Made by a program: the position numbers and the translations under genes
In this document: piece by piece, positions 8,276 through 38,979 of the stretch
Position numbering within the stretch: position 1 is the first letter of the stretch
How the letters are laid out: the number at the start of each line of letters is the position of its first letter
Source of the DNA: Vampirovibrio chlorellavorus
GTDB lineage: Bacteria; Cyanobacteriota; Vampirovibrionia; Vampirovibrionales; Vampirovibrionaceae
Direction: 5' to 3'
Length of the DNA: 64,000 bases
NCBI GenBank assembly: GCA_903866275.1
Contig: CAIPMU010000013.1
Location: 124,001-188,000, forward strand
The notes under the pieces: model-generated
The model's database searches: none
The model's input: only the letters and a program-made list of their open reading frames with translations
What the model was told of the DNA's origin: nothing

Positions 8276-9283
8276 ATGGTTATTCAACTTCAAAATCAGC
8301 CTGTCTTACCGAGAAGCCTTTCGGTACAGGCGAGCCGTACGCCGCGCTTCGGTTCAAACGCCGCTAGCACTGCCGCCGAGACCGCAGTCAAGGAAGTGGC
8401 TCATTTGAACATCGCCAAAAATGTGATGAAAGGCATCGAACGCCTGGGCATCACCAAGGACATCCGCGTGGGCGGGATGTCGATGGAAGACATCTCCGGA
8501 CGTTTGCAAACCCTGATTGGCGTGTATATGCTGCAGGGTTATTTTGCCTATAAGGACAAGAAGCACCCGTGGGAAACCAACGGCCGCAACGCGGTGGTAT
8601 GGCTCATGACGGTTGCCCTGAGCGTCTGGAGCAAAAGCGATAGCTACGGGATTAACACCATGGTTTTCAACCACTTTATGAAAGCCAAAGGCACGCCCAA
8701 CAAGATCCCGATGATGCAATCCCTGCTGGACTGGGCCCGCATGGATACGGACTATTTAAAAATTCTGGAAGCGGCAAACATTGATGTCCCCAAAAAGGAC
8801 GCAATCGCGGCGCGAAGTGGTAAAAAAGCCCTCTGGGCCGCATCCTGGCTGGATTCCAACAAGGTAAAACGCATTCAGCGTTATCTGCAGGAGATTGAAC
8901 AGAAAGCGCCCGGCACTCTGGACGAAACCGAACTGGCGATGAAAAAAGCCATTCCGCAGTTTTTCAAGCGGATGAACGTTGCCAACATGGCTTCTACGGC
9001 AGTGATTACCGCCGCAACCGTTTACCTGATCGGCAACGTGGCCATGCAGATTGTGAACAAACTCTTCACGCCGCTGGACAAAGATACCGGCATGCTCAAT
9101 ATGAAACCCACCTATCAACCTTCCAGTGAGTTCAAACCCTGGAAATCGGCCCCCATCGTTCCCTATCAGCCAGGGTTTGCCTATCGTCCGCAACCATTGC
9201 CCTATCAACCGTTTCAACCCTTCATGCCCAACCTGATCACCCGGCCAATGCCACTCTATCCTCAGGGAGGAGTTAATCCATGA
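8276..9283 (+). CDS. Unknown membrane protein with Pro/Tyr-rich C-terminal tail, first gene of coupled pair
   Basis: This 335-residue protein is of no family I can name. The N-terminus is polar and carries a TPRFGSNAA motif at about 22-30. A WETNGRN segment (about 99-105) runs into a hydrophobic stretch (about 106-118). The central region is helical and basic, and a transmembrane helix lies at about 236-258. The last 57 residues are rich in Pro, Tyr and Phe, with repeated PYQP and PFMP motifs, suggesting a binding tail or extended spacer. The ribosome-binding site GGGGTGAT is very close to ATG 8276. The stop overlaps the start of the next gene (ATGA at 9280-9283), so both are made together. 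Confidence 0.75.
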   Translation: MVIQLQNQPVLPRSLSVQASRTPRFGSNAASTAAETAVKEVAHLNIAKNVMKGIERLGITKDIRVGGMSMEDISGRLQTLIGVYMLQGYFAYKDKKHPWETNGRNAVVWLMTVALSVWSKSDSYGINTMVFNHFMKAKGTPNKIPMMQSLLDWARMDTDYLKILEAANIDVPKKDAIAARSGKKALWAASWLDSNKVKRIQRYLQEIEQKAPGTLDETELAMKKAIPQFFKRMNVANMASTAVITAATVYLIGNVAMQIVNKLFTPLDKDTGMLNMKPTYQPSSEFKPWKSAPIVPYQPGFAYRPQPLPYQPFQPFMPNLITRPMPLYPQGGVNP

Positions 9284-11463
9284 GCACATTAATCTCTGGC
9301 ATGAGCGATCCGCTGATCTGGCAAAAGGTCTTGTCGCAATCCCCCAACATCAGTTATTCGACTCGGGGGGTTTCGCGGGTCCACGACACCGATCCGGGCC
9401 GTAAAGGCGACTACTGGTTCCGCGACTTCGGCATGGTGATGGCTTGTGCCTACATGACCGAACTCAGTTTCCGCATTGTGGACAAGTTTTTCACCATCCC
9501 TCAAATCACTTATGCCCTGCAGTTACAACGACTCAGCGACATTCAGCATCCCCTGAAACGCAGCGAACTGTATAAGGATGTTCAGAATTACGACCGCTTG
9601 CCGGAAGTGTTCCAGAACCGCATGATGGGCAGCCTGATTCGGGGCAGCTCTTCCCTGGTGCCACGGGTCATGCGAGAAATGGCCGAACAGGATGCCGAAG
9701 TGCTGGACGACAGTCTCAACCTGAAAGATGGAGAAAAGGTAGCATTCAGCAACGCCCTCAAAGCGCTTCAAAAAAATCCACTGTACAAGGAATCCAATGA
9801 GCCACTGGAACTGGCCATGCGGAATGCGGGTGTCGATAGAAAGATCATTCAGAACATTTCCAACATTGATAACCGCTATCAGCGAGAACAAAAAATTTCC
9901 GAATTTCTGGACAAAAACAAGAACGCCGGGATCAACGAAACGGAGTTTCGCCGGGCCATTCGCCTGGAAGATGCCCGTCAGCGGGGCATTTTGATTGATC
10001 ACATCCATCGAAATCAAAACTACAAAGAGTACGTCACCGAAAAGTATTTTGATCCCAAACACCCCCTAAAATCCATGGTGCCAAACTTCCTGACCCGTTA
10101 TGGCGAACAGGTTTATGCGGCCACGCACAAAGATCAGGAAGCGATGGAAAAGGCGCTGACCGAGATCTGGCACTTACCCCCGGATGCTCGGGTGTCCCAC
10201 TTTGATAAAAAATTCAACGAATTCAAGGAACACTTCTGTGTTCGCAAGGGGCAAACTTTCCTGCCGGATGCACAGATGAAACAATTTCTAAAGCATGGCA
10301 AGGCGCTTCGCAAAATCCTGGAAAAAGGCCAGAAGGCCTGCAAGGATGAATGGCGCAACGCAACCGAATCCCTACAGTATTTCCAGAAAAATGAGCTGGA
10401 AAAACATTGTAAGGATAGCCGAACCGATAAACTCAAAACGAACAAATTTGCAAAAATGCTGGCCACGGAAGAAAACCTGGCCACGGAATTCAGAGCCAGC
10501 CTGAAGCAGGAACTGGAAAGCACCCTGGACAAAATCCACGATCTCATCCCGGGCAAAAACCCGCAAACCGAAGCCAAAAAGGCCATTGAACGACTACAGT
10601 TACATCGCTTCTTCGGACACCCGGAAACAGAAACCCGGGGTCAGGAGCATGCCACCGCCCTGCACCAGGAGATCCGGAACGCATTACCTAAACGCTCAGA
10701 GGAAGTAGCCACCACGGGCCAAAGAAAAGACATTGCCGCAGCCATTAGCAAATTTATGAAGGCTCTGGAGCCCGAATCGTTTGAAACCATGATGCGTCCG
10801 CTGCTCAAAAGCGAAGGCATTTCACTGCTGAAACAGGATGACGGCAAGACGTTTATCCAGAAGATGGAACGTCTGGTCCGGGATTCCATGGACAGCAAAG
10901 TCACAACCGAACTCATCGGCAAAATCCAGAAGAGTAGCGGTTGGCCCAAAGCCTTCCTGACCGTGGCCTTTAACTTTGTGTTCTACGGTCTGGCGGCCAG
11001 CAAGTTTGATAATAATGTCCTGCAACCCTACCAGAAAAAGCTGGTCGCCGAACGCGGCACTTCACAGGATATTGTGAATGCGGGCTATCTGGCGCTGATA
11101 CCCGGTTCTATGTGGCTGACACAGTTGTTTGACACAACCACACCCATTAAAGCCATTCGTCGTCTGGACAGCCTGAGCCGGTTTACCGTCGTCGGCGGCG
11201 CGGCGCTGGCCACCTTTGGCGCGAGCACATACCTCATTCTACAGCAGCTGCTCAAGAAGCCAGCCAAAAACCCGCCCGTCCAGCCTACGGCATTGCGTCC
11301 AACGTCAACGTCCCCCACCGTCATGCCCTTTTCGCCCGTGGGTCGTGCGTCGTTCATCAACATGCCAGCCCAGCAAAATCCCTCCTCCCCATTTGGGCTA
11401 CCCGCACCAGGTTCTGTGGGCTTTAACCGATTCGCCTTTCCCCCAGCCAATCAGGCACGCTAG
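9280..11463 (+). CDS. Unknown large helical membrane protein, second gene of coupled pair
   Basis: This 727-residue protein is not recognisable to me. Translation is coupled to the gene before it: ATGA overlap, with GGGAGGAG at 9265-9272. A hydrophobic stretch after WFRDF (about 48-72) echoes the WETNGRN-hydrophobic segment of the partner. Residues about 130-530 are highly charged and helical, with likely coiled coils. Two or three membrane segments follow at about 565-670. The C-terminal 50 residues are Pro/Phe/Ser-rich, ending with motifs such as SPFGLPAPG. The shared tail type and coupling suggest the two proteins form one membrane complex. No catalytic motif is visible. Confidence 0.75.
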   Translation: MSTLISGMSDPLIWQKVLSQSPNISYSTRGVSRVHDTDPGRKGDYWFRDFGMVMACAYMTELSFRIVDKFFTIPQITYALQLQRLSDIQHPLKRSELYKDVQNYDRLPEVFQNRMMGSLIRGSSSLVPRVMREMAEQDAEVLDDSLNLKDGEKVAFSNALKALQKNPLYKESNEPLELAMRNAGVDRKIIQNISNIDNRYQREQKISEFLDKNKNAGINETEFRRAIRLEDARQRGILIDHIHRNQNYKEYVTEKYFDPKHPLKSMVPNFLTRYGEQVYAATHKDQEAMEKALTEIWHLPPDARVSHFDKKFNEFKEHFCVRKGQTFLPDAQMKQFLKHGKALRKILEKGQKACKDEWRNATESLQYFQKNELEKHCKDSRTDKLKTNKFAKMLATEENLATEFRASLKQELESTLDKIHDLIPGKNPQTEAKKAIERLQLHRFFGHPETETRGQEHATALHQEIRNALPKRSEEVATTGQRKDIAAAISKFMKALEPESFETMMRPLLKSEGISLLKQDDGKTFIQKMERLVRDSMDSKVTTELIGKIQKSSGWPKAFLTVAFNFVFYGLAASKFDNNVLQPYQKKLVAERGTSQDIVNAGYLALIPGSMWLTQLFDTTTPIKAIRRLDSLSRFTVVGGAALATFGASTYLILQQLLKKPAKNPPVQPTALRPTSTSPTVMPFSPVGRASFINMPAQQNPSSPFGLPAPGSVGFNRFAFPPANQAR

Positions 11464-13340: not shown

Positions 13341-15308
13341 ATGAACCTGGGCGACGCTATGGTCATTGATACCTTCCATCAGAATACTTCTCCCAGACAG
13401 TTGGCTCAGGCCAGTTTACTGGGCCTGCTCTTTACCTGCATGCTTTTACAGGCCGCCATGCCACTGGCACAAGCCATAGATGCCTTATCCGGGGCGGAGC
13501 AAACGTTTTTCTCTCATGATTACGCAGGGGAGCCGGTGTCCGGGCGACTGGATCGACTGGAAAGCAGCGTATTTGGCTCGCCGCAAAATGGCACCGACGC
13601 AGAACGCACGGCCAGACTACTCCGGGTGCTAAACAGGGCCAAAAATGTCATTCCCAGCGGACCCAAAACACCCGCAACCGATGACAACGCCAGCATTAGC
13701 CCCACCCCCTCAGGCATTACCCGGTTCAATCCGCCCAATCAAAATGATCAAAACACCTCCGGTGATCCGGACAATGCAGACAACAGCCCACATACTGAAA
13801 ATACAGTCGGCTCCGGGTATTCTTCAGGCCCAAAACCATCGGTGGGCGAGAGTGACTACCCCACTGTCACGGCTTTAGAACGTGAGGTGTTCAGTCGAGA
13901 CTTTCTGAGAGATGACATCAGCCGCAGGCTGGATCGACTGGAGGCGAAAGCCTTTGGACAGCCCAGCCCCAACATGGCCCTGTCCGATCGGATGGATCGA
14001 CTACTGGCCCGCTACCCCCATGCGGCCGGACAGGTGGCCACCTACGCCGGAAGCTCCAGCAGCGGCACTGGCAGCTCGGCCATTCGGGATCTCCCCAGCG
14101 ACTCTCGAGCCTTTGTGGGCCAAATGGATACCTACACCAAGGTCGGTGTTCTGGAGAAACGGCTGTTCAATGGCAAAACGTTCGACGGCGAACTCCTCAC
14201 CCAGCGACTGGACCGTCTGGAAACCAAGTCTTACGGGCGTAATTTTTCAGGCCAGAGTATTGATATGCGGGTGAACCGTTTGCTGGGTGCCTACAAAACG
14301 CCAGCTAAAAACAACCTCACCACCAACCGGGCCCTCCTGACCCAGCCGGATCCCGCCAAATGGCAGAGTCCTTCGCAGGTCGGGTATACCGGCAGCTTCC
14401 TGTCCCCCTCGGCAAGACCGGGTGGATCGGGGTACTCAAACAGCTATACTCCCGGTGCGAACCCCAATTACAACGGGTACAACAACCCTTATCCTGCGGG
14501 CGGCGACACCAGCCAGCCCAACTATGGTTACAACACCGGCGGGGCTTCAACACCAGCCCAACCCGGTAGCCCCCCGCAAAACATCCAGATTGGCGGCGGC
14601 TTCAGCAGTTCCGGCAGTAGCACGTACAACTTCAGCCCGGACATGATGGCCATGCTGCCTCCCGGCATCCAACAGCAACTGGGCGGCGGCGGGCTCACAC
14701 AACAACAATCGGCCACCACCGTGGTGGGTGCGCCCGGCACAGTCATCACCCAGGAAACCACCAGCTACCCCGGCTTTCAGACCTATGGCGGAGCCCCGGT
14801 TACGACCTACAACTACTATGGCCCTGCCAACGGGGTCAGCCCCAACAGCACCGGGACGGTACAGTTGCCCGGCCAGTCGACGGTCACGGTCATTCAACCC
14901 AACGGGATGCCTACTGTCATCCAGAATCCGGCCTACCCAGGCTATAGCACTGGAACAGGCACGATCAATGGCCTACCCACGCCGGTCTATGTGGGAGATC
15001 CGGCAGTTTTACAAGGACTGAATAACCTGGAAATGAACCTTTACGGGCAGGTAAACCCGATTGAATCGGTGCCGGTGCGCCTGAGTAAACTGGAAACCGT
15101 GATGCTGGGTCAGGTTTATATGGGCTACCCCGATGATCAGCGACTGGGACAGTTGCAGAAGGCGTATCAAATGCAGTCCGTCGGACGCCTGCTGGGTAAG
15201 GGCAAGGCGGCCAACATTGGCCGGACGGCAGGCAGCATGCTCTTTGGCGTACCCATGAATATGCCCACGGCACCCAAACCGCTAATTCCCCCTAGCACCA
15301 CCAAATAG
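13341..15308 (+). CDS. Secreted protein with four RLDRLE-type repeats and Gly/Ser/Asn/Pro-rich spacer
   Basis: This 655-residue protein has an N-terminal signal sequence (hydrophobic about 24-40, likely cleavage after AQA near 45). It carries four copies of a roughly 50-residue repeat at about 49-98, 176-225, 268-318 and 560-612. The pattern is LE-x3-[FY], then RLDRLE-x3-[FY]G, then R-x2-RLL-x-AY. Copy 4 is degenerate (RLSKLE). Between copies 3 and 4 lie about 240 residues of Gly, Ser, Asn, Tyr and Thr. Helical repeats joined by flexible linkers suggest an extended surface or periplasmic scaffold. I do not recognise a named family. A TATAGT-like element lies just upstream, but no good ribosome-binding site is seen. 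Confidence 0.85.
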   Translation: MNLGDAMVIDTFHQNTSPRQLAQASLLGLLFTCMLLQAAMPLAQAIDALSGAEQTFFSHDYAGEPVSGRLDRLESSVFGSPQNGTDAERTARLLRVLNRAKNVIPSGPKTPATDDNASISPTPSGITRFNPPNQNDQNTSGDPDNADNSPHTENTVGSGYSSGPKPSVGESDYPTVTALEREVFSRDFLRDDISRRLDRLEAKAFGQPSPNMALSDRMDRLLARYPHAAGQVATYAGSSSSGTGSSAIRDLPSDSRAFVGQMDTYTKVGVLEKRLFNGKTFDGELLTQRLDRLETKSYGRNFSGQSIDMRVNRLLGAYKTPAKNNLTTNRALLTQPDPAKWQSPSQVGYTGSFLSPSARPGGSGYSNSYTPGANPNYNGYNNPYPAGGDTSQPNYGYNTGGASTPAQPGSPPQNIQIGGGFSSSGSSTYNFSPDMMAMLPPGIQQQLGGGGLTQQQSATTVVGAPGTVITQETTSYPGFQTYGGAPVTTYNYYGPANGVSPNSTGTVQLPGQSTVTVIQPNGMPTVIQNPAYPGYSTGTGTINGLPTPVYVGDPAVLQGLNNLEMNLYGQVNPIESVPVRLSKLETVMLGQVYMGYPDDQRLGQLQKAYQMQSVGRLLGKGKAANIGRTAGSMLFGVPMNMPTAPKPLIPPSTTK

Positions 15309-37329: not shown

Positions 37330-38979
37330 ATGAAACAGAATAACTGGACGGCGCTGGCCATCAGTATCAGCCTAAGCGCAGGCGTTTCCGTTGCGTTCGC
37401 CGCCAACACCTTTCAGGACGTGAATGGCAGCTGGGCCAAACCGAGCATTAATAAGGCGGTCAACCAGGATATTATGACCGGCTATAGCGATGGCATGTTT
37501 CACCCGGACGCCTGGGTGACGCGCGAAGATTTCGTGCAGATGGCCGCCAAATCCATTGGATTGGCACCTACCCAAGCCAATATCGTGCCCAGTTTTAACA
37601 GTGTTTCCCAAAACACAGCCGGTTTTTCCAACGTGGATAATCAGGCCTGGTTATCCAGTTACCCCAGTGGGGTGGCCTTACCGGATAATCCCGTGCGGCG
37701 CGTAGAAGCGCTGACTGCATTGGCAGGCGCGCTCAACAAACCACTGGTCAGTGATGCGGAAGCCACTAAAATTCTGAATAAATATCAGGACGCGGCACTG
37801 GTGCCCACGGATTCACGACAGGCGGTGGCCACGGCCATTCAGTACAAACTGTTTGCCATCGATCCCAAATCCGGCAGCAACATGCTGGAACCGCTGCGAC
37901 CCGCCACACGAGCCGAAGTCGCCACCATGCTGGAAGAGTTGCATAATAAACGCGACATTGCCATTATTCAAAATGGACAAATGGTGGCCAATGCCGTGCC
38001 GAACGGGGCCGGTATTCCGGGGGGAGCCAGCGCCACCAATACCAGCATGACCAGCAGTAGCAGCACCACAACAACCACGAGCGGAACGGCTAGCACGACC
38101 GCTTCCGAGACCACCACCGGCACGACCGGGGCCGGTGCAGCCAACTCGACCACGGCAGCCACGCAAACCACCACAGGCACCAGCGCGGTGAGTGGCAGCA
38201 GCGAAACCACCACGCCGATGGAAAACACCGGGGTGACGGCAACCTCTCAGGCGGAAGCCGACAAGCAGGCGGCCAAAATCGGATTCAAGCGCACGCCCTA
38301 TCGCAATAGCGCCAACACCATCCCGGAGCTAAAACCGATGAGCAGTTCCACAGAACAACGCACACTGGATGCGGCGGTGCCCCTCACGCTGGCGCCCGGC
38401 ACCACATTCATGGGCACGGTGGCCAAATCGCTGTACTCCGATTTTAACCACCCCGGCGACCCGGCCATGCTGATTCTGGATCACCCGGTACTGGACGCCA
38501 ACGGGCGCGTAATCGCACCGGCAGGCAGCAAGGTGATCGGCTTCGTGAACAGCGTGCTCTCGCGAAACGCCACACCCACCAGCGAAAATGCCCAAATCGG
38601 CCTGACCTTTAACGGATTCATCACGCCTACAGGGCAAATGATTCCCATCAGCGCCACGGTCGATAATGCCGATGGCATTATAAAGGCGGGCGAGGCACAG
38701 GGGATTGTCTACAAGCCCACGCGTTCGGTGCAGGCCTTGCGCCGTGAGGTCAACACCTCCGAAGGGGCAGACTATGGCAGCAAATTTGGCAAGGCCTCAG
38801 TGCTGTCCGAACCGATGGTGAGCCAGGTGAGCCCAACGCCGCTGTACGCCTCCGATATTACGCCCAAGGATCTGCTGATTGGGGTGGGGGATCGACTGCA
38901 ACTACGACTGGATGCCGCAGGCCCTGGCACGATGGTCAACAATACGCTGGAAACGAACAACACGTCCAGCAAACCATAA
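37330..38979 (+). CDS. S-layer homology (SLH) domain surface protein
   Basis: This 549-residue exported protein has signal peptide MKQNNWTALAISISLSAGVSVAFA. One clear SLH motif follows (about 26-85: FQDVNGSWAKPSINKAVNQDIMTGYSDGMFHPDAWVTREDFVQM), with a second weaker set to about 210; such domains bind cell-wall polymers or porin-like anchors. Residues about 235-300 are a Thr/Ser/Ala linker. The C-terminal domain (about 340-470) contains PLTLAPGTTFMGTVAKSL and VIAPAGSKVIGFV, resembling the beta-barrel of VirB10/TrbI-type proteins. That second resemblance is inferred from motifs. AAAAGGAG precedes ATG 37330. Confidence 0.85.
   Translation: MKQNNWTALAISISLSAGVSVAFAANTFQDVNGSWAKPSINKAVNQDIMTGYSDGMFHPDAWVTREDFVQMAAKSIGLAPTQANIVPSFNSVSQNTAGFSNVDNQAWLSSYPSGVALPDNPVRRVEALTALAGALNKPLVSDAEATKILNKYQDAALVPTDSRQAVATAIQYKLFAIDPKSGSNMLEPLRPATRAEVATMLEELHNKRDIAIIQNGQMVANAVPNGAGIPGGASATNTSMTSSSSTTTTTSGTASTTASETTTGTTGAGAANSTTAATQTTTGTSAVSGSSETTTPMENTGVTATSQAEADKQAAKIGFKRTPYRNSANTIPELKPMSSSTEQRTLDAAVPLTLAPGTTFMGTVAKSLYSDFNHPGDPAMLILDHPVLDANGRVIAPAGSKVIGFVNSVLSRNATPTSENAQIGLTFNGFITPTGQMIPISATVDNADGIIKAGEAQGIVYKPTRSVQALRREVNTSEGADYGSKFGKASVLSEPMVSQVSPTPLYASDITPKDLLIGVGDRLQLRLDAAGPGTMVNNTLETNNTSSKP

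Follow-up and report, generated by a model that had tools for sequence, protein, structure and literature searches.

A start/stop-overlapping pair of membrane proteins conserved in Vampirovibrionales, probably distant members of an unnamed class-wide family

Given two overlapping genes for unrecognised membrane proteins in a 64,000-nucleotide stretch of Vampirovibrio DNA, the question arises whether they make up a lone two-component system, as an earlier note on this DNA had proposed from the letters alone, or belong to something larger, and what such a pair might do in the cell. The stretch, hereafter the window, is positions 124,001 to 188,000 of contig CAIPMU010000013.1 (assembly GCA_903866275.1), and its genome measures 3.0 Mb. 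The host is a Vampirovibrio species of the order Vampirovibrionales, a lineage of non-photosynthetic cyanobacteria (PMC4451040). We call the two genes A and B; the coordinates at which the earlier note had placed them were exact (Table 1).

A conserved unit with the architecture of translational coupling

The letters ATGA are common to both genes, with the start codon of B at 9280-9282 and the stop codon of A at 9281-9283. In all 14 A-B pairs read from the order, the two genes are adjacent and the start of B overlaps the stop of A, through ATGA in seven pairs, TGATG in four and TAATG in three. In most of these 14 pairs a Shine-Dalgarno-like stretch lies in the last codons of A, and many A proteins end in Gly-Gly, the codons of which coincide with the ribosome-binding-like site. 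No promoter-like site was found in a promoter scan, terminator-like sites numbered 5 against 6.0 expected, and an Rfam search gave no match.

The profile of A matches 16 of 194 genomes of the class, 15 within the order and one, weakly, outside it (E value 0.0033), and that of B matches 16 of the 18 order genomes. Both genes occur in the same 16 of these 18; the A of genome G020, missed by the profile, is counted here on the strength of its place directly upstream of B and its 63% identity to the A of G008. The two order genomes lacking the pair have completeness values of 78% and 56%. In G063, A and B share one contig and one strand, and in G056 they sit at the ends of two separate contigs, which fits an adjacency broken by assembly. 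Separation of the genes in relatives, named beforehand as a finding that would speak against a joint system, was never seen among the 18 genomes. Within the genus the pair is flanked by rlmN on one side and a gene for a STAS-domain protein on the other, and searches of the host genome found a single copy each of A (E value limit of 1) and B (limit of 10). A-B is a core, single-copy trait of the order Vampirovibrionales and a conserved unit with the architecture of translational coupling.

Between close species, A has a ratio of nonsynonymous to synonymous substitution rates of 0.12-0.16, B one of 0.11-0.16 and RlmN one of 0.09; the low values of A and B indicate real genes under purifying selection. 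The two proteins diverge faster than RlmN: between the host genome and its congeners, identity is 45-52% for A, 36-40% for B and 76-77% for RlmN. One family of the order (f2; loci L053, L054 and L055) carries much longer forms, with 627-759 residues in A and 723-814 in B; these were aligned separately and are excluded from the 12-row alignments of A and B used below, in the second of which one row (L046) begins 11 residues early. In two of the f2 loci (L053 and L055), aspS follows the pair.

Layout of the two proteins and searches for described relatives

Models of A and B were made with AlphaFold2, at a mean predicted local distance difference test (pLDDT) score of 62.6 for A and 54.1 for B, the hairpins being modelled at low to moderate confidence. 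In A, residues 1-47 fall below a pLDDT of 50, and within them F25 and G26 are nearly invariant among the 12 aligned proteins. The hairpin that comes after holds four invariant residues (Q87, E100, T101 and R104); beyond it the model has a small helical domain and then a long helix (217-263) that encloses the only strongly hydrophobic segment of the protein. The last 60 residues contain 16 Pro and 10 Phe, Tyr or Trp, and pLDDT is below 50 from residue 272 onward. In B, conservation in the hairpin region falls on R29, R33, R41, D44 and Y45. Residues 80-553 hold 84 Lys or Arg and 73 Asp or Glu and are modelled as helical, yet pLDDT is below 50 for 357-526; the whole protein ranges from 369 residues (L047) to 977 in V. 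chlorellavorus (L043), the middle being the part that varies. Two strongly hydrophobic segments are found in B, its last 60 residues contain 12 Pro and 6 Phe, Tyr or Trp, and its tail has 6 Lys or Arg and no Asp or Glu. The C-terminal membrane helices, the Pro/aromatic tails and the charged helical stretch of B, all claimed from the letters, are therefore present, the last of them with low pLDDT in part.

Table 1. Positions of the features of A and B in the window, and of the E-F loci elsewhere in the host genome
Feature	Position	Strand	Basis or remark
Gene A	8276-9283	+	Open reading frame; 335-residue membrane protein, first of the pair
A, Phe-Gly-Ser leader motif, residues 25-27	8348-8356	+	In disordered N-terminus
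A, N-terminal helical hairpin, residues 70-120	8483-8635	+	AlphaFold2 helices 70-93 and 98-120
A, C-terminal membrane helix, residues 242-260	8999-9055	+	Hydropathy 1.74; module shared with C
A, Pro/aromatic tail, residues 264-335	9065-9280	+	Composition, low pLDDT
Coupling site	9265-9283	+	Ribosome-binding-like GGGAGGAG (9265-9272) within the last codons of A, then ATGA overlap
Gene B	9280-11463	+	Open reading frame; 727-residue membrane protein, second of the pair
B, N-terminal helical hairpin, residues 11-79	9310-9516	+	AlphaFold2 helices 11-36 and 39-79
B, charged helical spacer, residues 100-553	9577-10938	+	AlphaFold2, low confidence; length-variable
B, membrane helix, residues 558-576	10951-11007	+	Hydropathy; followed by conserved D-N-x-V-x-QPYQ-x-KL
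B, membrane helix, residues 636-654	11185-11241	+	Hydropathy
B, Pro/aromatic tail, residues 660-727	11257-11460	+	Composition; pLDDT below 50
E-F pairs and fused E-F protein	L233:5612-8079, L234:2965-5516, L235:4290-6185		No Pfam match

A further claim, that both proteins share a W-x(n)-R-[ND] segment, stands as a description of the letters (W99 with R104-N105 in A; W46 with R48-D49 in B) and is not supported as a shared motif. The Trp is not conserved in either family, and the N-terminal regions of A and B reach a profile match of 0.1-0.2%, so that the likeness may be due to chance; a shared domain was rejected on the same comparison. A stretch of A, ETNGRNA, resembles the helix motif of high-light-inducible proteins, a likeness that we rejected because the spacing differs and G103 is unconserved. 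The view of A and B as full-length duplicates of one another was likewise set aside, at an hhalign probability of 1.5-1.6%.

Both proteins remained unrecognised, as the earlier note had stated, and homology to a characterised family, which it had named as a finding against its proposal, was found in neither profile nor fold searches. Specifically, the best matches of A and B in Pfam, NCBIfam and PHROGs have E values of 0.011-0.31, all far below the cut-offs; the best PDB matches by sequence (E values of 0.8-1.4) are not credible, and profile searches of PDB with A and B gave no credible match. A PADLOC search with A, B and five relatives returned no family at E values up to 0.1, a Pfam search at E values up to 1 placed neither A nor B in a family of the type IV secretion apparatus, and neither a phage search with A nor a plasmid search with B gave a match. 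Foldseek found no fold match below an E value of 0.001 for either protein (best, 0.9). With VIA-align, the model of A reaches Z scores of at most 6.1, and middling Z scores are often reached by helical bundles. Its three-helix arrangement resembles those of BAR-domain and DgkA structures (PDB 4avm, Z 5.7 over 140 residues, root-mean-square deviation 6.0; PDB 4uxw, Z 6.0 over 88 residues, deviation 4.8), scores of the helical-bundle type from a weak model, and no sequence relation of A to either structure was seen. On sequence, we rate A-B as apparently fitting no described family, and as new in that narrow sense only.

Further coupled pairs and a class-wide fused family

A second coupled pair, C-D, lies upstream of acpS in Vampirovibrionales, and profiles of C and D each match all 18 order genomes. 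In the host genome it occupies a contig other than that of A-B (L117:6354-8851; G000:C16), with an ATGA overlap and acpS following; acpS was found in 12 of the 15 order loci searched with C-D. The pair lies upstream of A-B in G002, and in both G002 and G014 the genes C, D, acpS, A and B form one same-strand cluster. A second C-D pair is present in all four f2 genomes. Like A-B, C-D is a coupled pair with a terminal membrane helix and a Pro/aromatic tail; unlike A-B, it has no F-x-G leader in the host copy, a shorter middle and a place in every order genome. A link to phosphopantetheinyl transferases was rejected, since a second such enzyme stands beside a fused gene (below) only in L239, L245 and L246, all of genus g34, among 21 loci opened, which we read as incidental. 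A likeness to pore-forming toxins was set aside: XaxA, a two-component alpha-pore-forming protein, is reached by the profile of C at an E value of only 0.09 (not significant) and is not among the matches of A or B at E values up to 1.

In family f6, which we take to be Gastranaerophilales and which is the source of most members of the wider family, the C profile gave weak matches that led to proteins of about 500 residues. One of these, the fused protein L150 (L150:1474-3021), has relatives in 105 of the 194 class genomes; when 292 genomes sampled from the phylum were searched, 120 had relatives of it, every one of them in this class. The layout of this fused family, an F-x-G leader, a helical hairpin, a helical middle and a terminal membrane helix, is like that of A-B; the Phe and Gly of the leader are nearly invariant in 18 fused relatives, the hairpins of which also conserve charged residues. 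The family occurs as tandem or fused pairs, and its absence from Pfam and NCBIfam means that it is not a described one. Searches of the literature, of which coverage was partial, brought up nothing on the family, which does not prove that it is unpublished. Five tandem fused loci were opened, mostly picked for neighbouring matches (L236, L237, L238, L240 and L244). By gene names recognised by eye, the tandem genes of f6 stand beside atpG in L237, L240 and L244 and one gene away from it in L236, and in these four loci atpG/atpA and a tRNA nucleotidyltransferase-like gene lie nearby. A role as an ATP-synthase accessory was rejected: neither A-B nor C-D was seen to have such a neighbour, and a Pfam match to ASA5 (E value 0.04) is not significant.

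With L150 as query, three more places came up in the host genome, namely two coupled pairs with ATGA overlaps, E1-F1 and E2-F2, and a single protein of 631 residues (L235). The latter and the L228 protein of G052 are fused forms within the order, and both align with E followed by F. Besides A-B, the host genome thus has at least three further coupled pairs and a fused protein of similar layout, so that the proposed two-component system holds as one unit, given its overlaps and its shared occurrence, and not as a lone one.

To gauge kinship, we compared profiles of the modules, the fused-family profile being built from 32 proteins selected by the analyst among those found. The first half of the fused protein matches E at a probability of 99.1-99.3% and the second half matches F at 98.8-99.1%; E and F are shown by these profiles to correspond to the halves of the fused protein. 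The E-F pairs are hence a single protein in split form, and the two partners are likely to be in contact. In comparisons of profile slices, A and C agree in their C-terminal membrane modules at 80-87%, and this module of C agrees with the one at the end of the fused protein at 87-89%; both the A-C and the C-fused kinship are well supported. The hairpins of D and F match at 52-65%, and kinship between these two proteins is reasonably supported. The direct comparison of A with the fused family gives 9-14%, and A is tied to it via C, through the terminal membrane module. As controls, which were few, ten slices of unrelated membrane proteins (drawn from 23 gene groups, several of them from one SecF-like group) were set against 11 modules, and none of the 110 comparisons exceeded 20% (maximum, 13.4%); reversed-sequence controls mostly fell below 10%, with C against its own reverse at 21%. 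Taken together, A-B probably belong, as distant members, to a larger unnamed family of the class, from which they differ in being split, in having diverged beyond direct profile detection and in their long Pro/aromatic tails. For B itself, kinship with the wider family is no more than suggested.

Several other proteins of the class, some apparently enzymes, begin with a short polar stretch that closes on F-x-G or F-G (L239:1527-2660, L052:3436-4887, L241:9421-10923 and L081:5138-5614). As a general targeting signal F-x-G was rejected: a loose form of the pattern occurs near the N-terminus in 96 of 380 non-family genes and further in in 85 of 380, and among family genes the counts are 43 of 77 and 34 of 77, with no enrichment. 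Beside E-F, divergently oriented in two genera, stands H, a conserved protein of about 505 residues with an F-G-G leader (L234:5784-7310, + strand; L241:4165-5688, - strand); membership of H proteins in the family was rejected (hhalign at most 9.1%). Elsewhere in the window, 13341-15308 encodes a 655-residue protein with several R-L-D-R-L-E-x-K-x-F/Y-G repeats and no Pfam match, and 37330-38979 a 549-residue protein, the start of which resembles a surface-layer homology domain.

What the pair may do

The reading that we favour, and to which we give even confidence, is that A and B are obligate partners in a structural scaffold of the cell envelope, an order-specific pair related through A to the class-wide family of split and fused proteins. 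Start/stop coupling would let A and B be made in step; the helical hairpin and C-terminal membrane helix of each would anchor and pair the subunits in one inner-membrane hetero-complex; and the length-variable helical arm and the disordered Pro/aromatic tails would reach into the compartments flanking the membrane. In the wider family, a single membrane protein with halves of similar build would be either fused or split, as in E-F and probably C-D, with A-B as a fast-evolving version particular to the order, and the complex would be neither an enzyme nor a device for predation only. Membrane topology, physical contact between A and B, the kinship of B and the scaffold role are what we infer here. 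A scaffold is favoured because conserved residues are found in the hairpins and the terminal helices, with the middle of B free to change in length, because no catalytic family was matched, and because the family spreads far beyond the order of the algal predator.

Several observations weigh against this reading. B is tied weakly, its module matching that of A at 30-36% and that of the fused protein at 17-20%, values that exceed those of unrelated segments but that some of the reversed controls also attain. The B module matches its own reverse at 79%, and the highest reversed controls across modules reach 43% (one module of the fused protein against its other module reversed) and 31% (F against reversed A). 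Among the N-terminal hairpins, those of A, B and C match neither one another nor the rest as profiles, and the N-terminal modules of A and B stay at or below 3.6% against the others for the hairpin motif of the wider family, R..E..RE..G. The models of A and B are weak, the first hairpin helices are marginal as membrane segments (median hydropathy 0.87 and 0.76), which makes the number of membrane spans uncertain, and nothing in the gene neighbourhood of A-B points to a scaffold function.

The reversed controls and the unmatched N-terminal modules are also what one would expect if A-B were unrelated to C-D, E-F and the fused proteins, with the likeness in layout and in one membrane segment a product of hydrophobic convergence. 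We consider this unlikely, although it carries a real share of the probability: the A-C and C-fused matches lie far above the range of the 110 unrelated comparisons, and the pairs agree in gene order and coupling and form a joint cluster in two genera.

Somewhat less probable, in our view, is a channel or transporter in which at least two three-helix units form a pseudo-symmetric pore, the fused relatives having an arrangement of three, one and three helices. A hydrophobic linker joins the halves in all 18 fused proteins (hydropathy at least 1.2), and neither the tails of A, C, E1 and E2 nor the leaders of B, D, F1 and F2 contain one, as expected if the halves lie parallel; if each half indeed has three spans, the linker would keep them so, as two separate genes would. 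The charged residues conserved in the hairpins also suit a pore. Against it stand the marginal first hairpin helices, the fused L228 protein, which has no clear linker, and the failure of any transporter family or fold to match.

That A-B is part of an attachment pad or secretion apparatus with which Vampirovibrio feeds on algae is improbable: the pair is order-specific, its disordered tails could bind a partner and the lineage has a described algal predator (PMC4451040), but none of the identified neighbours (lexA, rlmN, the STAS gene and a TIM-barrel gene) serves secretion or pili, no match to a secretion-system family turned up, and a family spread far beyond the order argues against a predation-only role.

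Returning to the scaffold, it is tempting to speculate further, if only tentatively, that A-B belongs to a multi-copy membrane system found only in this class, with pseudo-twofold complexes, the two halves of which one large lineage has as a fused protein and the lineage of the predator as separate, coupled genes; A-B would then be the fastest-evolving of at least four pairs and would assemble with C-D into one envelope structure. Few traits peculiar to the sister lineages of photosynthetic cyanobacteria are understood, and a conserved, multi-copy, paired family outside the curated libraries searched is a lead to peculiarities of their envelope. Since fused and split forms coexist, the contacts between partners are predictable and can be tested directly.

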